From Imbricaverruca yamaguchii (lineage: Eukaryota > Arthropoda > Thecostraca > Neoverrucidae): a stretch of 64,000 nt of DNA. Position 1 is the stretch's first letter, and each line of letters opens with the position of its first letter. The position numbers were made by a program, and so were the translations under genes. The stretch spans positions 1,008,501-1,072,500 of the forward strand of contig JAOTOL010001605.1 of the NCBI GenBank assembly GCA_034440575.1. Direction: 5' to 3'. Under the pieces are notes generated by a model. It was not told where the DNA came from. It saw only the letters and a program-made list of their open reading frames with translations, and did not search any database. This document shows, piece after piece, positions 232 through 61,842 of this stretch.

Positions 232-322
232 GCCCAGCTAGTTGTGTGTGTGTGTGATTGTGGTTTTAGGGCGCATCGACCATGGTTGGTCATTTAGCGC
301 CCATAACAGAGCCCAGCTAGTT
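232..322 (-). mobile_element. Mini-retroposon family D, copy 1, with TSD
   Basis: A 67-nt insert (244-310) is flanked by a perfect 12-bp direct repeat, GCCCAGCTAGTT, at 232-243 and 311-322. The insert holds the family D hairpin (GGGCGC ... GCGCCC) on the right and its tail on the left, here expanded to a GT microsatellite. In the element's own orientation the hairpin is 5' and the tail 3', so the copy lies on the minus strand. It has no tRNA-like head. Confidence 0.85.
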
Positions 323-1034: not shown

Positions 1035-1116
1035 TTCGAATGGTATGCTAATTAGTTAGTTATTTGAGATTAAGGGCGCATCGACTGCGTCGGTCATGCA
1101 GCTTCGAATGGTATGC
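1035..1116 (-). mobile_element. Mini-retroposon family D, copy 2, with TSD
   Basis: A 54-nt insert (1049-1102) sits between two perfect 14-bp direct repeats, TTCGAATGGTATGC, at 1035-1048 and 1103-1116. The insert reads, on the plus strand, tail (TTAGTTAGTTATTTGAG) then the GGGCGCATCGACTGCG hairpin arm, ending at CATGCAGC. This is one of the cleanest examples that a sequence of about 55 nt retroposed by itself. Confidence 0.9.
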
Positions 1117-3504: not shown

Positions 3505-3754
3505 CAAGGTTCGGTCTGGTTTGGCTATTTGAGTTTTAGGTCGCGTCGAGGTTGGTTGGTTGGTTATTGGTTTTACGACACGTCGACCGTTGAGTCATGT
3601 AGCGTCACCAATCTCTCACGCCGATTGGTCGCGGGCGAATAGTTGTGACAGGTGAGACTCGAACCCACAACCTTTCGATTGTGAGACGAGCAACTTACCC
3701 CTAGGCTACTCGTCCCCTTGGGTCGCGTCGAACCGACGTGCTCATTTAGAGTCC
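3505..3754 (-). mobile_element. Family D relic split by a SINE-B insertion
   Basis: Left (3505-3549) and right (3721-3754) parts join into one family D element: tail TTGGCTATTTGAGTTTTA, then GGTCGCGTCGA, then the second hairpin arm. Between them lies the SINE-B copy with its own 11-bp TSD. The D copy is therefore older than this SINE-B copy. No outer TSD for D is visible, consistent with age. Confidence 0.7.
3539..3731 (-). mobile_element. SINE family B, full-length, with TSD
   Basis: A 171-nt insert (3550-3720) is flanked by a perfect 11-bp repeat, GGTCGCGTCGA. Read on the minus strand it starts with a tRNA-like head: a TAGCCTAGGGGTAAG A-box, a CTCACAATCGAAAGG anticodon region and a GGTTCGAGTCT B-box. 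A body (CCGCGACCAATCGGCGTGAG), the shared hairpin and an AATAACCAACC tail follow. The head resembles tRNA-Val in its anticodon arm; that assignment is inference. Confidence 0.92.
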
Positions 3755-3861
3755 AATATCCAGGGTGACCGTGAAGGGTCGCCGCTGGATAGGAGACAGC
3801 CGCTCACTGTGCAGTCCGATGCACCGTTCACAATACAGTCGCCGCTCGATAACTGTGGATT

Positions 3862-4790
3862 GTGTGTAACGCAGCCCTTGGCTGGTGCTGGATACGTCGG
3901 TTGGTTGGTTATTGGAGTTTTGGGGCGCATGGTGTCGGGTACGTGACGCAGCCCTTGGCTGGTGTCGGGTACGTGACGCAGCCCTTGGCTGGTGTCGGGT
4001 ACGTGACGCAGCCCTTGGCTGGTGTCGGGTACGTGACGCAGCCCTTGGCTGGTGTTGGGTACGTGACGCAGCCCTTGGCTGGTGTTGGGTACGTGACGCA
4101 GTCCTTGGCTGGTGTCGGGTACGTGACGCAGCCCTTGGCTGGTGTTGGGTACGTGTGTGCGTGACGCAGCCCTTGACTGGTGCTGGGTACGTGACGCAGC
4201 CCTTGGCTGGTGCTGGGTACGTGATGCAGCCCTTGGCTGGTGCTGGGTACGTGATGCAGCCCTTGGCTGGTGCTGGGTACGTGATGCAGCCCTTGGGTGG
4301 TGCTGGGTACGTGACGCAGCCCTTGGCTGGTGCTGGGTACGTGACGCAGCCCTTGGCTGGTGTCGGGTACGTGACGCAGCCCTTGGCTGGTGTCGGGTAC
4401 GTGACGCAGCCCTTGGCTGGTGCTGGGTACGTGACGCAGTCCTTGTCTGGTGTTGGGTGCGTGACGCAGCCCTTGGCTGGTGCTGGGTACGTGACGCAGC
4501 CCTTGGCTGGTGCTGGGTACGTGATGCAGCCCTTGGCTGGTGCTGGGTACGTGATGCAGCCCTTGGCTGGTGCTGGGTACGTGATGCAGCCCTTGGCTGG
4601 TGTCGGGTACGTGACGCAGCCCTTGGCTGGTGCTGGGTACGTGACGCAGCCCTTGGCTGGTGCTGGGTACGTGATGCAGCCCTTGGCTGGTGCTGGGTAC
4701 GTGATGCAGCCCTTGGCTGGTGTTGGGTACGTGACGCAGCTCTTGGCTGGTGTCCGTTACGTGACTCGACTCGCGATGTATCTAGTCAGC
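3862..4790. repeat. 30-bp minisatellite, about 29 units
   Basis: The unit is GTGACGCAGCCCTTGGC plus TGGTGCTGGGTAC, in phase with the 60-base rows. A 6-bp insertion at about 4152-4160 shifts the register once. Each unit contains CAGCC-CTT-GGCTG, able to form a 5-bp hairpin. Variants (GCTGGG, GTCGGG, GTTGGG) are interspersed in blocks, suggesting local duplication. One unit (about 3868-3897) is separated from the rest by a family D fragment. Confidence 0.95.
3897..3930 (-). mobile_element. Family D fragment at the edge of the 30-bp array
   Basis: The sequence TTGGTTGGTTATTGGAG, then TTTTGGGGCGCAT, matches the tail and the start of the hairpin of family D. It separates the first array unit from the remainder. 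The unit-like sequences on both sides (TGGTGCTGGATACGT and GGTGTCGGGTACGT) could be diverged TSDs or ordinary array units. Confidence 0.65.
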
Positions 4791-4944
4791 GCCTGATGGA
4801 GCGGCATCACCGTTTGCGTGTATAAGCCGTGACGCACATGGGAAGCCCACGACACCCGGGCCGAACCCAGGAGGAGGACCAAGTCAGAGCTGGCTGCGGT
4901 GGCAACGTGCGTCAGCCTGACTCACTCAGTCCTGATCAACAATG

Positions 4945-5635: not shown

Positions 5636-6265
5636 GGTGGCCGCCACCATTCGACAGGTGCAGACGGACATACGGGTCCGATCCGGCTGATAGGCACGGC
5701 TGCCGGCCGGCCGCTACGACCTGTTTGGTTTCCACTGCTGCATCGGCGCCGGCTTCGAGAGAAAGCCGAGCATACCCAATGCCGATGGCCCCAATAGAGC
5801 AAACTATTGGTCAGCCTGTAAGTGTCTCTATCATATGTTATTACATTCAGATGTAGGCTTAAGCCGATGTGGGGATATCACCCGACAAATTTCAGACTTC
5901 AGACAATTTGCATCATGTCTCTTCGAAATAGTTAAATGCAAAGCCCATTCTTCGCGAGCGACTGAAACGATGTTCCGGTATCGAAATGTCGTTCGGCCAC
6001 AGCATCGCAGCCACTGCAATTTCCGTTACCCGTTCGAGGTTGCAGCGCGGCGTCACTGTCAACAACAGCCGGCCGGCACGTGAGCCGTGACGGTGTGACG
6101 ACACGCCGGCCGCGCCGGCTGGCACGCGCCGGCGTCACACGCTGTCGACACGGTGCACCCTGCCACTGCGCCCGTCTGCTCATGCACCACGAGCGCGGCC
6201 GACGCGCCGCTGCCAGCGCGACCCTGCACTCGGCGCTCGGTTGCATGCACGCAAAGCAGATTAAC
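5636..6265. other. Single-copy DNA, GC-rich on the right
   Basis: No repeat family or exon recognised. From about 6040 the sequence becomes CpG-dense. Confidence 0.4.
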
Positions 6266-9377: not shown

Positions 9378-9960
9378 GCTGTGAAGCAAGCAAAACAAAT
9401 CAGTTTACTGCGCTGCAGCCCACCGCATCAAAAGCAATGTTTACACTGTGTGGTTGGATTAGCTTCTTTTCTCGCGAACTGACCGTGCACACTGCATAAC
9501 ATATCACCGCTCCCTGGTCCGGCCAAAACAGCAACGCCCGAGAACGGGACGCGCTGTTGTTCAGCTACGCGACGACGCTGATGATCATCATGACTAACGG
9601 CAACTACGGCGAAACCCAGGGCGGCGTCACGACAGGACACGCTCCTGAGCAGCCATACATATCTCCACTGGTGACCACTAGCCGAGGTCCGCGCGGCTAA
9701 TTGGAACTATGGTGCAATCCAGTGTGACACCGTGACCTGGGATAACCCGAAGTAAATCGCAGGAAGCTGTCGTCAGGCCCAAAGCGCATCTCAGATCTCA
9801 AGATATACGAGTCACATGTGAGTCGACTAAAAAAAATTGAGTCGAGCACAAGTCTGCCTGCAACGAAAGCCGACAAGACCTCGTTCATTCCAATGACGCA
9901 CACGAGACACAACGGACAATGGCTGCGTCACGGCGCGCGCATGCTCAGAAGCTCCCCGAG
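9378..9960. other. Single-copy DNA, nothing recognised
   Basis: No repeat, exon or RNA gene recognised. Confidence 0.4.
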
Positions 9961-9967
9961 CTGCCCG

Positions 9968-10514
9968 GCCGGCTGCCGACGGACTCGCGGCCGGACCAAA
10001 CCGTACAGGGCCGCCCAACTTGGACGGACTCGCGGCCGGACCAAACTGAACAGCGCCGCTCAACTTGGACGGACTCGCGGCCGGACCAAACTGAACAGCG
10101 CCGCCCAACTTGGACGGACTCGCGGCCGGACCAAACTGTACAGGGCCGCTCAACTTGGACGGACTGGAGGCCGGACCAAACCGTACAGGGCCGCTCAACT
10201 TGGACGGACCGACGGCCGGACCAAACCGTACAGGGCCGCCCAACTTGGACGGACTGGCGGCCGGACCAAACCGTACAGGGCCGCCCAGCTTGGACGGACT
10301 CGCGGCCGGACCAAACTGAACAGCGCCGCTCAACTTGGACGGACTCGCGGCCGGACCAAACCGTACAGGGCCGCCCAACTTGGACGTCCAGCCGCCCGGA
10401 CCAAACTGTACAGAGCCGCCCAGCTTGGACGGACTCGCGGCCGGACCAAACTGCACAGGGCCGCCCAACTTGTGCAGACTCGCGGCCGGACCAAACCATA
10501 CAGGGCCGCTCAAG
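9968..10514. repeat. 45-bp minisatellite, 12 units
   Basis: The unit is CAGGGCCGCCCAACTTGG, ACGGACTCGCGGCCGGACC, AAACCGTA. Four units fill exactly 180 bases. Because 45 is divisible by 3, both strands stay open for more than 200 codons. The translated repeats have no family I recognise and the array has no flanking splice or promoter signals, so it is not called coding. Confidence 0.95.
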
Positions 10515-10765
10515 TGACCTCAAGAAACAATGAATCCTGAACAGTGGGCACGGATGGGCAGTGTTTGCGGCACCTGCATGGGCAGTCAATGTTTGCATCA
10601 CCTACACGGGCAGGCAGTGTTTGGGTCACCTACATCGAGTAGGCAGAGTTTGCGGCACCTATACGGGTGGGCACGTGTTTGCGGCACCTACGGGGGGGGC
10701 AGTGTTTGTGGCACCTACACGGGTGGACAGTGTTTGGGGCACCTACACGGATATGCAGCGACGGA
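10511..10765. repeat. 28-bp minisatellite, first block, about 7 units
   Basis: Units of GGGTGGGCAGTGTTTGCGG plus CACCTACAC follow a unique leader (GTGACCTCAAGAAACAATG) at 10516. The leader and first units recur at 11139, so this block and the large array at 11165 descend from one duplication. Confidence 0.92.
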
Positions 10766-12892: not shown

Positions 12893-13395
12893 GGCTACTA
12901 TGGCGAACCTCCCCAAGCCTGATCCGCAACACAGTGCAGTTTGGCAGGATTTGCGCCGCACTGGTACCGGTGGCGAGAGCGGAGCATCACACCAATCATT
13001 TCGAGGGTCCAGCAATGCTGCAGCCGATGAATTCAAAACGCACTGGCAGGCTCCGTCCATACCGATCACTAATTAAAGCAGTAATTATTGAAGGAGCTCG
13101 ACCGAACATCAAAGGAGCTCCGAAGGGATGAGACCCTTCAGGAAGCTCCATCCATCGCCGCTGCGTTAGTGGACTCCAAGCCCTGCAACCGTTTGGCACA
13201 TCGAACTTTGGCTGGCGACGGCGCAGGCGCCGCTTAGCGGAGCGCGAACTCCGGCGAACTCTGCACTGTTATCCACCGTCTTGGCATACCTAAAGCTGCT
13301 GCCAGCGGCGTGCGATCACGCCATGGAGGACCGGCGGAAAGCCGCATTCTTTTCACCGCGTCAACTCGACAGAGGCCACACAGGCCACCCAGGCC
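12893..13395. other. Single-copy DNA between two arrays
   Basis: No convincing exon. AAGGAGCTC occurs twice at 13091-13120. Confidence 0.4.
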
Positions 13396-13397
13396 AC

Positions 13398-14492
13398 CGT
13401 GAGGCGCAACTCGCGACACAGCGCAAGCTCGGCACAGACCGGACAGCAGGCGCAACTCGCGACACAGCGCCAGCTCGGCACAGACCGGACAGCAGGCGCA
13501 ACTCGCGACACAACGCCAGCTCGGCACAGACCGGACAGCAGGCGCAACTCGCGACACAACGCCAGCTCGGCACAGACCGGCGCAACTCGCGACACAGCGC
13601 CAGCTCGACACAGACCGGACAGCAGGCGCAACTCGCGACACAGCGCCAGCTCGGCACAGACCGGCAGGCGCAACTCGCACACGCCAGCTCGGCACAGACC
13701 GGACAGCAGGCGCAACTCGCGACACAACGCCAGCTCGGCACAGACCGGACAGCAGGCGCTCGACACAGCGCCAGCTCGCCACAGACCGGACAGCAGGCGC
13801 AACTCGCGACACAACGCCAGCTCGGCACAGACCGGCGCAACTCGCGACACAGCGCCAGCTCGACACAGACCGGACAGCAGGCGCAACTCGCGACACAGCG
13901 CCAGCTCGGTACAGACCGGACAGCAGGCGCAACTCGCGACACAGCGCCAGCTCGGCACAGACCGGACAGCAGGCGCAACTCGCGACACAGCGCCAGCTCG
14001 GCACAGACCGGACAGCAGGCGCAACTCGCGACACAGCGCCAGCTCGGCACAGACCGGACAGCGGGCGCAACTCGCGACACAGCGCCAGCTCGGCACAGAC
14101 CGGACAGCAGGCGCAACTCGCGACACAACGCCAGCTCGGCACAGACCGGACAGCAGGCGCGCAACTCGCGACACAGCGCCAGCTCGGCACAGACCGGACA
14201 GCAGGCGCAACTCGCGACACAGCGCCAGCTCGCCACAGACCGGACAGCAGGCGCGCAACTCGCGACACAGCGCCAGCTCGGCACAGACCGGACAGCAGGC
14301 GCAACTCGCGACACAGCGCCAGCTCGGCACAGACCGGACAGCAGGCGCAACTCGCGACACAGCGCCAGCTCGGCACAGACCGGACAGCAGGCGCGCAACT
14401 CGCGACACAGCGCCAGCTCGGCACAGACCGGACAGCAGGCGCGCAACTCGCGACACAGCGCCAGCTCGGCACAGACCGGACAGCGGGCGCCC
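13398..14492. repeat. 46-bp minisatellite, about 24 units
   Basis: The unit is CAACTCGCGACACAGCGCC, AGCTCGGCACAGACCGG, ACAGCAGGCG. Some units lack the ACAGCAGGCG block or have GCGCGCAACTC at the junction. A 46-bp unit without stops shifts frame each time, so all frames are open; the longest run is 477 codons on the minus strand. No start context, splice site or domain supports translation. Confidence 0.96.
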
Positions 14493-14637
14493 AGGCCGCC
14501 GGCCCGTCGACAGCCGCTCGCCTGTCCGCTGTCGCACGGCGCCCGGGCGGCTCGGCTGACGCGGAGAGCCGGGCTCGATGCCAGGAGCCGACTGCAGTGT
14601 CGCCCGGGCCGCCGCGGAGCTGCTAGCGGCTGCGCTG

Positions 14638-15262
14638 CCACCGTGCGGTAACGCAGCCTGGTATCCGTGAGGTGACACTGCGTAACACACCGTGGGTAAC
14701 GCAGCCTGGTATCCGTGAGGTGACACTGCGTAACACACCAGGTGGTAACACTGCGTCACCGACTTGTGGTAGCACCGCGCTACCACCGTGCGGTAACGCA
14801 GCCTGGTATCCGTGAGGTGACACTGCGTAACACACCAGGTGGTAACGCTGCGTCACCGACTTGTGGTAGCACTGCGCTACCACCGTGCGGTAACGCAGCC
14901 TGGTATCCGTGAGGTGACACTGCGTAACACACCGTGTGGTAACGCTGCGTCACCGACTTGTGGTAGCACTGCGCTACCACCGTGCGGTAACGCAGCCTGG
15001 TATCCGTGAGGTGACACTGCGTAACACACCGTGTGGTAACGCTGCGTTACCGCCGTGTGGTTACACAGCCTGGCATCGGTGTGGTAACACTGCGCTACCA
15101 CCGTGTGGGTAACACGTCCGGAATCGGTGTGGTAGCACTGCGACACGGTGTGGTAACACTGCGCTACCACCGTGTGGTACCACAGCCCGGAATCGGTGTG
15201 GTAGCAATGCGTAACACGTGTGATAACACTGCGCTACCACCGTGTGGTACAATAGTCGTTGC
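14638..15262. repeat. 97-bp array built of palindromic subunits
   Basis: CCGTGCGGTAACGCAGCCTGG starts at 14786, 14883 and 14980, a 97-bp period, with a shorter unit at 14641. Each unit contains GGTAGCACTGCGCTACC, a 6-bp stem with a 5-nt loop. Right of 15050 the array continues with diverged units. Many GGTAAC/GTTACC and GGTAGC/GCTACC pairs give high hairpin potential. Confidence 0.92.
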
Positions 15263-16941: not shown

Positions 16942-17016
16942 GACTGTCATTGGTTGGTTGGGTATTTGGGCTTACGGGCGCATCGACTGCGTTTGTCATG
17001 CAGCGCGACTATCATT
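16942..17016 (-). mobile_element. Mini-retroposon family D, copy 3, with TSD
   Basis: A 55-nt insert (16952-17006) lies between 10-bp direct repeats GACTGTCATT and GACTATCATT (one mismatch). Tail GGTTGGTTGGGTATTTGGG is followed by the GGGCGCATCGACTGCG hairpin ending CATGCAGCGC. Confidence 0.85.
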
Positions 17017-20819: not shown

Positions 20820-22330
20820 GTGGCGCTACTCCAGGACGCTCTCCAGTGCATCTCAGCTCGTCGCGTTTCCAGACGGCGGTACCGTCACAGCAGAAAATAA
20901 GTGCCTCCGAAGAAATGGCGGCCTTCAGAACTTCAGAACAAGTCGCCCCATACATGTTCTTCGACCCGACCCTGTGTCCAGTGGGAGAACTAGCGACAAA
21001 TTTGCAGATACAACGCTACACCTAAAGCCACAGGACATATTATATCATGGGTTTTGGGTCAATTCTTGTTTGCTCTTGAAAATGTTGCAAAGTGACAGAG
21101 TCCATGCATGACAGGTGCAACATTCGGTTTAGGCCAGACGCAAGCCGCCAAAGTTGTGACAATAGTCGTAAGGCACCAGGGAAGAGATATGGACAGAGGA
21201 TGGGAGAGACATGATCTTTTAGGGAAAGCAACTCTTGTTGCTACAAGCTGATTCCTGTCTCTAGTCCAGGGTGTGTTCTTCCCCGAGTGCGAAATGCTCT
21301 TTTTCATCAGCCAATAGTGCAAATGGGCGACGGTATTAGTACATATAGTAGGTATAATATACAGAATGTGGAGAACACCTAAAGGTTAAACCAATTGAAA
21401 AACAAATTTGACTTTAAAAAGCACACACAAAGGAAACTGTAAAAGCCTCGGCATGCCACGTATCAGAAACCTGTCGCGGTGATCAAAGCATGAATTGCGG
21501 TGTTCCATAACTACCACGGCAACGGACCACAAGTGCATCCTATAGAACTTGCCAAATCAGTATTCAGGTGAGTCAACAGTGGAATCGCAAGAGCTTCTAT
21601 TACCAGAATAAATTACAATACATTACTATTCAGTATTGACAATCCCAGCCCTGAATCCTGCCTATGACAAAAGATATTCGAGATGCAATTTTAGTCAGCG
21701 CGAATTTCTGCACAGAATTCCAAGCTTCCGCGAATGCAAATGTGGAAAGGTAGTCGCGGAGCGAGTAACGCCCACCATACCATTACAGAATCCCACTCTC
21801 TCAGCACATTTTTGTCGAGACGTCATCACATTTTCCGCCGTCGAAACGAGCTCGAGAATCGAGCCCCAACTCGGTGTCGACGAGTTACCCAAACCGGTTA
21901 CAAGTTACCGCACCGTTACACTCTGTCTCGGTGTCAGCGGCAACAACAAGACCTCCGAGCCGATCTGAGGATCAGCAATACATAACGGACCTAGGATCGG
22001 CGGCTGTGCGGACGCCACTAGCGCTGGGACGGCCGGAGAAGGCACGGCCGGAGGTCCATCTGTCTCCGTAGCGGAGGTGCCGTCGTCTTGGAGAAAAACA
22101 CGTGTCTGCTCGGATCGCTCCACAAGAATAGTATGGGGATTGTGGGAGAGCGTGTTTTACACAAAGGCAGAGCGTACCTTTACAAATGATCGTTGAAGAG
22201 AAGTAAATTCCACGTACACACGTACACCCCGTACAATTCTGATCGTCCTTTTGACGTTGCCCGCAACATGTGAACTTATGCGCTTACTTTTCGAGAGCTC
22301 AACCTGACAAAAAACTTGTAAACAAGTGAC
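20820..22330. other. Single-copy DNA, nothing recognised
   Basis: AT-richer sequence. A 110-codon plus-strand frame at 21636-21968 has no recognisable domain. No dispersed repeat from this window occurs here. Confidence 0.45.
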
Positions 22331-27753: not shown

Positions 27754-27836
27754 GTGGGTGGTCAAGTTAGTTAGTTATTTGGGCTTAGGGGCGCTTCGAC
27801 TGCTTCGGTCATACAGCGCCCGTGTGGGTGGTCAAG
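27754..27836 (-). mobile_element. Mini-retroposon family D, copy 4, with TSD
   Basis: A 57-nt insert (27767-27823) lies between perfect 13-bp repeats GTGGGTGGTCAAG. Tail TTAGTTAGTTATTTGGGC, then GGGGCGCTTCGACTGC, ending CATACAGCGCCC. Confidence 0.93.
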
Positions 27837-28193: not shown

Positions 28194-28281
28194 CACGCAG
28201 AATCGCTGGGCGCTACATAATCAGTAGCAGTTGATGCGCCCTTAAGCCCAAATAATCAATCAATCAATCACGCAGAATCGC
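28194..28281 (+). mobile_element. Mini-retroposon family D, copy 5, with TSD
   Basis: A 62-nt insert (28207-28268) lies between perfect 13-bp repeats CACGCAGAATCGC. It is the only plus-oriented D copy: hairpin GGGCGCTACATAATC .. GATGCGCCC, then CTTAAGCCCAAATAATC and an AATC-repeat tail. Confidence 0.93.
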
Positions 28282-32375: not shown

Positions 32376-32459
32376 CCTGCCAGTGTGGTTGGTTGGTTAT
32401 TTGGGCTTTCGGGCGCATCGACTGCGTTGGTCATACAGCGCCCATCCCTGCCAGTGTGG
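32376..32459 (-). mobile_element. Mini-retroposon family D, copy 7, with TSD
   Basis: A 58-nt insert (32389-32446) lies between perfect 13-bp repeats CCTGCCAGTGTGG. Tail TTGGTTGGTTATTTGGGC, then GGGCGCATCGACTGCG, ending CATACAGCGCCC. Confidence 0.95.
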
Positions 32460-39188: not shown

Positions 39189-39256
39189 GGAAGACGGCGT
39201 CAGTTAATTAGTTATTGGAGTTTAAGGGCGCATCGACTGCGTCGGAAGACGGCGTC
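39189..39256 (-). mobile_element. Mini-retroposon family D, copy 9 (42 nt), with TSD
   Basis: The shortest insert: 42 nt (39202-39243) between perfect 13-bp repeats GGAAGACGGCGTC. It contains the tail TTAATTAGTTATTGGAG and only the 3' arm and loop of the hairpin (AAGGGCGCATCGACTGCG). Confidence 0.9.
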
Positions 39257-39998: not shown

Positions 39999-40145
39999 GA
40001 TCATCCAGTACATCATCCAGACGCTGACATCCAGTCAGCTGGCATCCAGTAGCTGACATCCAGTCAGTTGACATCCAGACGCTGGCATCCAGTCAGCTGA
40101 CATCCAGTCAGCTGACATCCAGACAGCTGACATCCAGACGCCAGA
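39999..40145. repeat. 15-bp minisatellite, about 10 units
   Basis: The unit is GCTGACATCCAGTCA with CCAGACA variants and two shortened units. Confidence 0.92.
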
Positions 40146-40149
40146 CTCG

Positions 40150-40604
40150 CCTGGCCGCCCAAGAGCTGCATGGCCCGGCCACGGCGGCTGACGAGTGTGA
40201 GGGGACCTCGAGCGGATTCCCAGGTCAACCAGTGGCCGCGTCTCTCGCGCCGGGCCGGCCGGCACACTTCCGGTACGGCGGGCGAGAGAGCGTGGGGGAG
40301 GGGCGTGGCAGTTGGCACGCGCGGGCCTCGGCGTCTGAGTGGCCGCCGTCGCTGCGGCGCCGGGGGCGGGCCGGCGGCCGTACCGCGCCCGGCACGTGAC
40401 TCGGCCGCGGCAGGCGCGCAGCGGCCGGCGCCGGCCAGACGTGCACTTCGGCAGTGAATCAGACGACCGCGGCTCGGCGTCGCCGGCTTCGCAGAGCGTC
40501 GGCGACGGCGACGTCGAGCGTCGACGAGTGGCGCGTCCGGTGGCGGGCGGCGGCGGCGCGCGCGCGGTGCCCGGCGAGGTCGCGCGGACGCCGCTCGCCA
40601 GCCT
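40150..40604. other. CpG-dense GC-rich block
   Basis: Very GC-rich with frequent CG. No array and no recognised exon. Confidence 0.45.
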
Positions 40605-40790
40605 CTCGGCCGTTTGCCGGCCAGAGCCGGCTGATGCGAGAGCCGGCTGTTTGGCGGCCAGAGCCGGCTGATGCGAGAGCCGGCTGATGCGAGAGCCGGC
40701 TGTTTGGCGGCCAGAGCCGGCTGATGCGAGAGCCGGCTGATGCGAGAGCCGGCTGTTTGGCGGCGAGAGCCGGCTGATGCGAGACGGGCC
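40605..40790. repeat. 18/37-bp repeat, AGCCGGCTGATGCGAG
   Basis: AGCCGGCTGATGCGAG alternates with AGCCGGCTGTTTGGCGGCC, a composite of two related half-units. Confidence 0.9.
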
Positions 40791-40859
40791 GCCATTGCCG
40801 GCGCTCCGTGCACCCAGCGGTGGAGCCAGAGAACCAGTCTGTCGTGCAGTGTGCGGCCT

Positions 40860-41915
40860 TCACCCGGCCCGGCCGCCGTGGGCCAACACACGGACACCAC
40901 AATGGCCGCCGTGGGCCAACACACGGACACCACAATGGCCGCCGTGGGCCAACACACGGACACCACAATGGCCGCCGTGGGCCAACACGCGGACACTGCC
41001 GCCGTGGGCCACACGCGGCCGCCGTGGGCCAACACCGGACACCACAACGGTCGCCGTGGGCTAACACGCGGACACCACAACTGCCGCCGTGGGCCAACAC
41101 ACGGACACCACAACGGTCGCCGTGGGCCAACACGCGGACACCACAACGGTCGCCGTGGGCCAACACACGGACACCACAACGGTCGCCGTGGGCCAACACA
41201 CGGACACCACAACGGTCGCCGTGGGCCAACACCGGACACCAACGCCGCCGTGGGCCAACACGCGGACACCACAACGGCCGCCGTGGGCCAACACGCGGAC
41301 ACCACAACGGCCGCCGTGGGCCAACACACGGACACCACAACGGCCGCCGTGGGCCAACACACGGACACCACAACGGCCGCCGTGGGCCAACACACGGCAA
41401 CACACGGACACAACGGCGCCGTGGGCCAACACACGGACACCACAACGGCCGCCGTGGGCCAACACACGGACACCACAACGGCCGCCGTGGGCCAACACAC
41501 GGACACCACAACGGCCGCCGTGGGCCAACACACGGACACCACAATGGCCGCCGTGGGCCAACACACGGACACCACAACTGCCGCCGTGGGCCAACACACG
41601 GACACCACAACGGCCGCCGTGGGCCAACACACGGACACCACAACGGCCGCCGTGGGCCAACACACGGACACCACAACGGCCGCCGTGGGCCAACACACGG
41701 ACACCACAACGGTCGCCGTGGGCCAACACCGGACACCACAATGGCCGCCGTGGGCCAACACACGGACACCACAACGCCCCGTGGGCCAACACACGGACAC
41801 CACAATGGCCGCCGTGGGCCAACACACGGACACCACAATGGCCGCCGTGGGCCAACACACGGACACCACAATGGCCGCCGTGGGCCAACACGCGGACACC
41901 ACGATGGCCGCGATG
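40860..41915. repeat. 33-bp minisatellite, about 32 units
   Basis: The unit is GCCGCCGTGGGCCAACAC plus ACGGACACCACAACG. Variants (ACGGTCGCC, ATGGCCGCC, ACACGCGG) form blocks. A few units are shortened (40995-41040, 41240, 41400). Because 33 is divisible by 3, very long frames arise, up to 650 codons on the minus strand including the flank. No domain or gene signal supports them. Confidence 0.96.
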
Positions 41916-42720
41916 GAACGCGATAGGTTCGGCATGAACTCGGCTGCCGTTCTGCCGAACGCCGTGGCGACACGACTGCGAGCAAGGCCAACTGACGAAC
42001 TACTTCTGCACAGCAAGAAGACTCCAGAGCCCGCCCAACCTATGAAGTAGTCAGAGGTGTCCAGCTGAACGCCGAGGACGAGCTCCTCTCAAACAGATTA
42101 GCCTGCGTGTTTCCCTTGTACACGAGCGTACGACAGGCACTATTTCCGTCGTGACAGCCGATTAGTAACGAAATGACGTCAGTGTTCTGGAGCGACTTCA
42201 GACGGACCTGGCATGTTGTATCACGTGTCGCCGTCAGTCACGAGCAGTTGCGCTGTGTATTTATGACGAGCTTAATCGGCGCACTGCCGAGATAGAAGTG
42301 GTATTTCAGCAGATCCTTTGCATCGTTCAACCCACTGGCCGGAAATCCTGCATAGTCGAATGATACGCATGATGATATCATTAGATTATGCATCAAATGG
42401 TATGCACCCGAAGATGCTGAAGCAACCCACTGTAGACCGCTCGCTGCCATTCACGCCACAGATCGTCACTCACAGACGCTGCGAAAATTCGCTCTTGGAA
42501 ATTCAGAAACTACACCCCGTTCTTTGCGCTGCATGCACGGTCTGCACGCTCGATTGTCCCCCGCACGCATGTTCGATTGTCAAATCTTGCGCCCGTGGAT
42601 ATATATCGTCTCCCCACCGATCAGCCAACCCAACATAATACACCCGATGTAACGATACGACAGACAATCGGACATTACGCTGTTGCTGGGCGGCCATACA
42701 CGGCAGTGAGGTCACCTACA
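41916..42720. other. Single-copy DNA, nothing recognised
   Basis: No repeat or exon recognised. Confidence 0.4.
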
Positions 42721-45673: not shown

Positions 45674-45835
45674 CTCTGATTGGTTGGTTGTGGCTTTACG
45701 ACGCACTCAGCACCTGAGGCCATACGGTGTCGCCTGCCTCTCACTCCAACAGGAAGGGCGGGCACCGCGGGGATCCAAACACGTACCTCTGACATGCCAG
45801 ACGATCAACTTAACCACTGAGCTATCGACGCCCAA
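45674..45835 (-). mobile_element. SINE family C, full-length
   Basis: Minus-strand order: TCGATAGCTCAGTGGTTAAG (A-box), CGTCTGGCATGTCAGAGG, a degraded B-box region (GTTTGGATCCCC), body CGGTGCCCGCCCTTCCTG, the shared 3' domain GGCGACACCGTATGG .. GCGTCGTAAAGCC, and an ACAACCAACC tail. No secure TSD. The head resembles tRNA-Ala; inference. Confidence 0.88.
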
Positions 45836-55695: not shown

Positions 55696-55775
55696 GGTAA
55701 TGTTTATTGTTAGTTAGTTATTTGGACTTTAGGGCGCATCGACCAGAGTTGATCATTCGCGCCTAAAGGTAATGT
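55696..55775 (-). mobile_element. Mini-retroposon family D, copy 11, with TSD
   Basis: A 64-nt insert (55704-55767) lies between 8-bp repeats GGTAATGT. Tail TTAGTTAGTTATTTGGAC, hairpin GGGCGCATCGACCAGAG .. TCATTCGCGCC. Confidence 0.85.
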
Positions 55776-55968: not shown

Positions 55969-56158
55969 TGACCTCGGGTGTGGTAGTGGTGGTTGTTGGT
56001 TTTACGACACATCGACCGTTGAGTCAAGTAGCGTCGCCAATCTCTCACGCCGAATGGTCGCGGACGAAGAGTAGTGACAGGTGAGACTCGAACCCACAAT
56101 CTTTCGATCGTTGGACAGGTAACTTACACCTAGACTACTCATCTCTGACCTCGGGTGT
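55969..56158 (-). mobile_element. SINE family B, full-length, with TSD
   Basis: A 164-nt insert (55982-56145) lies between perfect 13-bp repeats TGACCTCGGGTGT. All family B parts are present: B-box complement GACTCGAACCC, body CTCTCACGCCGAATGG, tail GGTTGTTGGTTTTACG. Confidence 0.95.
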
Positions 56159-56464: not shown

Positions 56465-56669
56465 TCTTCCAGTGGTTATTGGTTTTACGACACATCGACC
56501 GATGAGACATGTAGCGTCGCCTCGCCGAGGGACGCTATCTCTCACGCCAATCTCTCACGCCGAGATTGGCCGCGGGCGAAGAGTAGCGACAGGTGAGACT
56601 CGAACCCACAACCTTTCGATTGTGAGACGATCAGCTTATCCATAGCCTACTCGTCCCCTTCTTCCAGTG
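56465..56669 (-). mobile_element. SINE family B with internal duplication, with TSD
   Basis: A 185-nt insert (56475-56659) lies between perfect 10-bp repeats TCTTCCAGTG. It has an extra segment of about 25 nt in the body, where CTATCTCTCACGCCAATC is followed by a second TCTCACGCC, suggesting slippage during reverse transcription or a later duplication. Confidence 0.93.
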
Positions 56670-57234: not shown

Positions 57235-57435
57235 CTACTCCTCAGTCGGTTGGTTGGTTGGTTGGTTGGTTATTGATTTTACGACACATCGACCGTTGAG
57301 TCATGCAGAGTCGCCAATCTCTCACGCCGTTTGGTCGCGGGCGAAGAGTAGCGACAGGTGAGACTCGAACCCACAACCTTTCGATTGTGAGACGAGCAAC
57401 CTACCCCTAGACCACTCGTCCCCTCTACTCCTCAG
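57235..57435 (-). mobile_element. SINE family B, full-length, with TSD
   Basis: A 179-nt insert (57246-57424) lies between perfect 11-bp repeats CTACTCCTCAG. The tail consists of several GGTT units; head, B-box and body are intact (ACCCCTAGACCACTCG, GACTCGAACCC). Confidence 0.95.
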
Positions 57436-59339: not shown

Positions 59340-59536
59340 GCATACGGTGACTGGCTGGTTGGTTGTTTATTGGTTTTACGACACATCGACCGTTGAGTCA
59401 TACAGCGTCGCCAACTTCTCGCGCCGATTGGTCGCAGGCGAAGAATGGCGACAGGTGAGGCTCGAACCCACAACCTTTCCATTGTGAGACGAGCAACTTA
59501 CCCATAGGCCACTCGTCCCCAGCATGCATACGGTGA
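59340..59536 (-). mobile_element. SINE family B, full-length, with TSD
   Basis: A 175-nt insert (59351-59525) lies between perfect 11-bp repeats GCATACGGTGA. Head end ACTCGTCCCC, B-box complement GGCTCGAACCC and tail GGTTGGTTGTTTATTGG are visible. Confidence 0.95.
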
Positions 59537-61690: not shown

Positions 61691-61842
61691 GATTGGATTG
61701 TGGCTTTACGACGCACTGAGCAGCTGAGGCCATATGGCGTCGCCTGTCTCTCACCATGGCAGGAAGGGCGGGCATCGCGGGGAATCGAACCCCGTACCTC
61801 TGGCTTGCCAGACGCTCAGCTTAGCCACTGCGGTGCTGGCTC
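61690..61842 (-). mobile_element. SINE family C, full-length
   Basis: Minus-strand order: A-box region degraded (CACCGCAGTGGCTAAGC), CGTCTGGCAAGCCAGAGG, intact B-box GGGGTTCGATTCCCC, body GATGCCCGCCCTTCCTG, the 3' domain GGCGACGCCATATGG .. GCGTCGTAAAGCC and tail ACAATCCAATCC. No secure TSD. Confidence 0.9.

Follow-up and report, generated by a model that had tools for sequence, protein, structure and literature searches.

The loss of 5' ends from LINEs is an old question, mostly studied in elements that break at many positions. Both truncated LINE copies and stem-loops common to the 3' ends of LINEs and SINEs are well known, as the available parts of two articles document (PMC3747384, PMC4176376). 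According to the accessible sections of the first, a review, truncated LINE copies elsewhere measure 100-1,000 bp and are cut at various positions (PMC3747384), and excerpts of the second describe a zebrafish L2 LINE stem-loop that is recognised and bound by the LINE protein (PMC4176376). Here we analyse a 64,000-nt stretch of the Imbricaverruca yamaguchii genome (the window; contig JAOTOL010001605.1) that carries hairpin-bearing inserts of only 42-67 nt. A sequence-only reading had assigned them to a distinct short retroposon family, D. We conclude instead, with a probability of about 95%, that the D inserts are extreme 5'-truncated LINE copies, hereafter stubs.

All nine inserts proposed for the window were confirmed together with their target-site duplications (TSDs), and the evidence supports the proposals that they are retroposed, that their TSDs are precise and that their lengths form a discrete short class. 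Seven TSDs are perfect and span 12-14 bp, that of 16952-17006 is 10 bp with one mismatch, and that of 55704-55767 is 8 bp. A profile built from these nine inserts found two extra matches, and the window inserts were compared against the 3' ends of nine longer copies:

1049-1102, minus strand: LINE 3'-end stub of 54 nt; 14-bp perfect TSD; 5' end at +4, within the 5' arm of the stem; best match L034, 43/49
244-310, minus strand: LINE 3'-end stub of 67 nt; 12-bp perfect TSD; CACACA-type tail; 42/49 to the LINE 3' end of L080
27767-27823, minus strand: LINE 3'-end stub of 57 nt; 13-bp perfect TSD; 53/53 to the 3' end of L034
28207-28268, plus strand: LINE 3'-end stub of 62 nt; 13-bp perfect TSD; 53/54 to the 3' end of L066, an ORF-bearing LINE copy
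32389-32446, minus strand: LINE 3'-end stub of 58 nt; 13-bp perfect TSD; 46/52 to L034
39202-39243, minus strand: LINE 3'-end stub of 42 nt; 13-bp perfect TSD; starts in the hairpin loop; 31/33 to L035
44392-44446, minus strand: LINE 3'-end stub of 55 nt; 14-bp perfect TSD; decayed stem; 39/48 to L062
16952-17006, minus strand: LINE 3'-end stub of 55 nt; 10-bp TSD with one mismatch; 42/50 to L034
55704-55767, minus strand: LINE 3'-end stub of 64 nt; 8-bp TSD; 47/53 to L080
33924-33980, minus strand: additional D-type match; imperfect 10-bp TSD (one mismatch) around an insert of ~68 nt; 47/54 to L066
28499-28548, minus strand: additional D-type match without a convincing TSD

Apart from 27767-27823 and 28207-28268, the remaining eight window inserts compared have weaker best matches, from 31/33 down to 39/48, and are therefore older or belong to subfamilies outside the copies fetched. 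Inserts consisting of tail alone are invisible to the profiles used. The window also holds long GC-rich tandem arrays (3749-4822, 9746-10601, 13170-14852 and 40038-42088) in which several frames are open, with many long, spurious-looking ORFs.

The notion of a distinct D family fails on the finding of longer parents that carry the D-diagnostic bases. In several LINE lineages the element terminates in the D hairpin (GGGCGC...GCGCCC) and, after it, an AATAAC-type repeat tail; this 3' end is common to the stubs and the LINEs of this genome, subfamily by subfamily. The parents are LINEs and not SINE-B or SINE-C elements, as had been envisaged. L065 and L053, which overlap within the same contig, form a single element in which endonuclease, RVT_1, RNase_H and the end of the ORF are followed by the hairpin; the Pfam matches in L065 are endonuclease (PF14529, PF03372), RVT_1 and RNase_H in that order, with two frames read separately across a frameshift. 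We take this order of endonuclease, reverse transcriptase and RNase H to be the layout of an APE-type LINE with RNase H, of the I superfamily. In the protein search, a barnacle, Amphibalanus amphitrite, supplied the first match from a named animal (P0033, 55% over 72%). Copies L050 and L062 share 376 upstream bases at 99.5% identity and differ in their downstream flanks; L050 is a truncated LINE copy of 428 nt that has the D 3' end and is flanked by an 18-bp TSD. The C-terminus of an open frame lies upstream of the hairpin in L053, L062, L050 and L044 and contains a Cys-rich motif, presumably of the kind found at the end of LINE ORF2; Pfam returned weak matches alone, below cut-off, for two of these C-termini.

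Within the copies read of one pair of subfamilies, LINEs and stubs alike, loop C goes with the tail CAAAG and loop A with TTAAG. The exact subfamily hairpins occur 408 times in the genome (206 + 202; 0 and 0 in the control), and a genome search with the LINE C-terminus yielded 9,456 candidates, with 150 places scored. For 19 ORF ends, drawn from the better-scoring of these 150 places on contigs up to C1029, the distance from the end of the ORF match to the hairpin was 41 nt in 11/11 C-type copies and 43 nt in 2/2 A-type copies; the other six have no exact hairpin among the places listed, and two of them (C517 and C748) have a mismatched one. When 20 LINE 3' regions were fetched, the hairpin was found in 10 (one clearly decayed), eight entered a repetitive 3' UTR with no hairpin within 221-229 nt, and two diverged. 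That repetitive 3' UTR is similar (~70-80% over many pieces) to what precedes the hairpin in L034, which makes L034 a probable, though not proven, LINE end. In LINE copies L074-L079, L084 and L085 the ORF is followed by a long 3' UTR in which a CTGTTTCACTGATG-like unit is repeated in diverged form. On the minus strand of L006 lie fragments recognised by eye as CR1-like LINEs; with no D hairpin in the 3' sequence read downstream they were rejected as parents, and probably not every LINE here carries the hairpin.

Because the linked loop and tail variants occur in both LINEs and stubs, the stubs must derive from at least two LINE subfamilies. Stub L030 matches the shared 3' end of L050 and L062, stub L064 and the window stub at 27767-27823 match L034, and the L044-type LINE end has stubs of the matching loop class and tail. 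Such an origin from several LINE lineages is not accounted for by one short source gene. Among the first 100 listed of the 408 places are 25 exact C-type hairpins, made up of 13 LINE-attached copies (11 by ORF match, two by sequence reading) and 12 TSD-bounded stubs, one of which (C584, L102) sits in GT-rich repeats and has a doubtful TSD; two pairs among the 25 are probably one locus each, present in two contigs. None of these 25 falls between the stubs and copies that reach at least the last ORF codons. Fourteen consecutive A-type copies were made up of 11 stubs, one LINE-attached copy and two left unclassified, so that the share of stubs may differ between subfamilies (12/25 C-type versus 11/14 A-type).

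The assembly comprises 767 Mb in 1,430 contigs, with a mean GC of ~51% at 20 arbitrary loci, and contains the exact pattern GGGCGC-N5..30-GCGCCC at 20,884 places versus 1,678 for the reversed pattern. An unselected sample of 284 kb (the window and 22 arbitrary 10-kb stretches, chosen without regard to hairpins) held 26 D-type matches. With a 60-nt upstream search, 18 of these reached a TSD score of at least 9, bounding inserts of 36-70 nt, compared with 11 of 300 trials on swapped flanks; the figure was 11/15 with the window excluded. The eight remaining matches gave no TSD score of at least 9 with the search extended 400 nt upstream. Extrapolated from 26 matches per 284 kb, the genome would hold ~70,000 D-type copies, a figure meant as an order of magnitude. 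Two further sets were scored with a 40-nt upstream search. Set A consists of 38 of the 50 exact-stem places listed, 10 having been removed by eye for a loop that is not D-like and two D-like places (L004; L001/L002) being omitted as already sampled; 23/38 scored at least 9. Set B combines six C-type copies with 14 A-type copies that are consecutive in the list, and 16/20 reached the same score; its C-type copies were picked after passing over LINE-attached places, and the set alone gives no fraction. Swapped flanks scored at least 9 in 1/400 pairs in the control for both sets. The contig pairs L036/L048, L057/L103 and L101/L112 each look like the same locus, with matching flanks; both haplotypes of some loci thus seem to be retained in the assembly, which raises the copy counts somewhat. 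Near position 6177 on the plus strand of L023, we recognised by eye an open frame like a mariner-type transposase.

The stubs are cut at a remarkably narrow place: of the 39 TSD-bounded intact-stem copies of sets A and B (score at least 9, with both L057 and L103, probably one locus, included), 36 begin between -4 and +1 of the stem, the exceptions lying at -7, -9 and, doubtfully, -11. This count rests on intact-stem copies and on a 40-nt upstream search in which 15/38 and 4/20 copies scored below 9, and since both sets require an intact stem, 5' ends inside the stem cannot appear in them. Several stubs in the unselected sample do start within the hairpin, including 1049-1102 and 39202-39243, and two of the 12 C-type stubs extend 8-9 nt into the LINE, with L111 placed at -8 by eye (-3 by script). 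Read by eye, several stubs also have 1-4 bases between TSD and stem that mismatch the LINE. A longer TSD search of 18 low-scoring copies produced convincing TSDs for L036 and L048 (181-182 nt) and for L050 (428 nt) and none for the rest, the control reaching a score of at least 10 in 3/60. Given their identical downstream flank, L036 and L048 are probably one locus and were rejected as two independent long copies. The earlier claim that nothing lies between stub and SINE lengths therefore holds for window inserts with clear TSDs and breaks down in the genome at large, where copies of 181-182 nt and 428 nt and ORF-attached copies (e.g. L053, L062) have the same 3' end. Truncation points varied along the element are not what the stubs display; such variation is usual for LINE copies without defining them, and concentrated truncation is a departure in pattern, not in origin.

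A related hairpin ends the tRNA-headed SINEs of the window:

57261-57428, minus strand: tRNA-headed SINE with the related 3' hairpin; insert of 179 nt by TSD
3556-3724, minus strand: tRNA-headed SINE; insert of 168 nt by TSD
59358-59528, minus strand: tRNA-headed SINE; insert of 175 nt by TSD
55990-56152, minus strand: tRNA-headed SINE; insert of 161 nt by TSD
56473-56663, minus strand: tRNA-headed SINE with a tRNA-Val-like head; insert of 185 nt by TSD

Among 28 SINE-type matches in the unselected sample, 12 (one doubtful) had a TSD score of at least 9 and bounded inserts of 133-218 nt (swapped control 1/300), and none of these 12 was a stub; a few other SINE-type matches, which lack TSDs, begin far into the profile and may include stubs. 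SINEs of ~160 nt are thus copied through the hairpin, which argues that the stubs do not arise from generally low processivity. The tRNA-like head with internal promoter by which SINEs are identified is absent from the stubs, which consist of hairpin and tail, and the tRNA matches of the window fall in SINEs. A SINE derivation of D was rejected, as the stem bases of the SINE hairpin differ and stubs number 0/12 among the TSD-scored SINE matches. One apparent SINE stub, L026 1321-1380 (insert 54, score 7), turned out to be the 3' half of a tRNA-headed SINE split by a D stub of 39 nt with an 11-bp TSD (L026:1121-1460); this stub must be younger than the SINE in which it lies. On the minus strand of the window, 61692-61826 and 45680-45815 belong to an older, diverged second SINE-like family, with a CGACGC/GCGTCG stem that is fully paired in the copy folded.

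The LINE and SINE hairpins share one fold: when 12 sequences, two of which are SINEs, were compared over nine pairs, 97.1% of the cells were paired; their bases are related, and three pairs have changed on both sides. None of 500 shuffles was as high on percentage paired, double-change cells or covariation score, while the observed count of doubly changed pairs was reached in seven shuffles and that of pair types in 416. Judged from this sequence comparison, the hairpin appears to be kept as a structure. A known RNA family or ribozyme was ruled out as its identity, the search of seven LINE-end loci returning one irrelevant match (E = 1). Predicted RNA folding energies overlap, at -11.5 to -16.8 kcal/mol for LINEs and -13.3 to -13.5 kcal/mol for SINEs. 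For the cDNA, the predicted values are -6.4 to -8.6 kcal/mol in LINEs, -2.9 and -5.1 kcal/mol in the main SINE and -6.1 kcal/mol in the older one; the cDNA stem is perfect in the LINE, whereas a G-U pair in the RNA of the main SINE becomes a C-A mismatch in DNA. The modelled contrast is a hint, not proof, in favour of a stop caused by the cDNA hairpin. It is a small one (-6.1 for the older SINE versus -6.4 kcal/mol for the weakest LINE), and the older SINE is longer despite its perfect stem.

How, then, do LINEs come to leave such stubs? A simple roadblock is disfavoured, since its products would consist of tail alone and stop short of the hairpin, whereas the main edge lies beyond it. Two options follow: synthesis stops after the hairpin has been copied, or the template RNA had its own end at that point. 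We favour, at somewhat better than even odds, termination of the LINE enzyme at the hairpin. The enzyme would nick the target and prime within the repeat tail, the tail and then the hairpin would be copied, and a large share of events would stop at once. The reason that we favour is that the new cDNA would fold into the same hairpin and peel off the RNA, which would end synthesis; in a variant, the enzyme would lose its anchor once the hairpin to which it is bound has been copied. Second-strand synthesis would then leave a stub of 55-60 nt. Three observations count against the simplest forms of this scheme: stubs that start inside the hairpin are not predicted by a pure post-hairpin stop, the untemplated junction bases would also fit run-off from an RNA end, and long LINE copies pass the same hairpin. 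The earlier suggestion that reverse transcription stops at the hairpin therefore survives with LINE RNA as the template and is lost for SINE RNA. A tentative and somewhat unlikely extension would make the LINE 3' hairpin a built-in terminator, in which the cDNA folds and releases the RNA, giving stubs of 50-70 nt in 12/25 to 11/14 of copies; as part of this same tentative proposal, the main SINEs would keep the RNA hairpin and weaken the cDNA hairpin, and so escape.

The chief rival to termination at the hairpin, a serious though less likely one, places the cut in the template: LINE RNA would be degraded from its 5' side, hairpin and tail would be protected by their structure or by bound LINE protein, and the remnant of 55-60 nt would be copied in full. 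Such trimming would account for an edge located 5' of the stem, for the extra untemplated bases seen by eye at several 5' junctions and, if short structured SINE RNAs escape it, for the absence of TSD-bounded SINE stubs; RNA hairpin stability alone fails to separate LINE from SINE. Stubs that start inside the hairpin speak against it, as do the two of 25 C-type copies that begin 8-9 nt upstream. It is in this form, as the trimmed 3' end of LINE RNA, that the earlier proposal of a processed hairpin RNA as template lives on. Highly improbable, in our estimate, is random 5' truncation by an enzyme of low processivity, with the stubs as the short end of a continuous distribution. Varied 5' positions are the LINE norm in the available portion of the review (PMC3747384), the intermediates of 181-182 and 428 nt exist and some stubs start within the hairpin, but such an enzyme would hardly yield 36/39 5' ends at -4 to +1, C-type copies (25) with no intermediates between stubs and ORF-reaching copies, or ~160-nt SINEs copied through. 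We consider it barely credible that D is a short retroposon family in its own right, with a source gene to itself, as the sequence-only reading proposed: discrete length and bases unlike those of SINEs suggested it, and against it stand the diagnostic bases in LINE parents, the linked loop and tail variants that track at least two LINE subfamilies, and inserts of 36-70 nt that contain hairpin and tail alone. A DNA-transposon (MITE-like) origin was rejected in view of the LINE parents and of the variation in tail repeats and TSD length.

Truncation at one structure, repeated by several LINE lineages and accompanied by SINEs that read through a related hairpin, makes structure-driven termination, anchor loss and template trimming directly comparable, with the stubs as a natural record of where copying stops. 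There is also a warning for annotation: short hairpin inserts that resemble a tiny separate family can be LINE debris, and stub insertions (18 TSD-bounded in 284 kb) are easily missed below length cut-offs. In the portions of the open-licence literature available to us, nothing recognisably identical to a hairpin-set class of LINE stubs was found.

Among known systems, the stringent-type LINE/SINE pairs (UnaL2, ZfL2-1, ZfL2-2) likewise have a 3' stem-loop with a repeat tail and share their genome with SINEs that bear a related hairpin. They differ in that the zebrafish study, in its accessible passages, concerns the L2 clade, whereas the LINE described here has an RNase H domain; the same passages make no mention of stem-edge stubs (PMC4176376). 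Closest to the stubs are 5'-truncated LINE insertions made by target-primed reverse transcription, which also have TSDs, a retained 3' end, a lost 5' end and longer parents; unlike ordinary truncated LINE copies, the stubs are cut at one structural point ~55 nt from the end. The tRNA-headed SINEs of the window resemble the stubs in their related 3' hairpin, AATAACCAACC tail and similar TSD lengths and differ from them in having a tRNA-like head, in being copied through the hairpin and in other stem bases. In bacteria, an RNA hairpin ends transcription at intrinsic terminators. By the analogy that we propose, the nascent strand here would likewise fold and end synthesis, except that this strand is DNA, which a reverse transcriptase makes from an RNA template.
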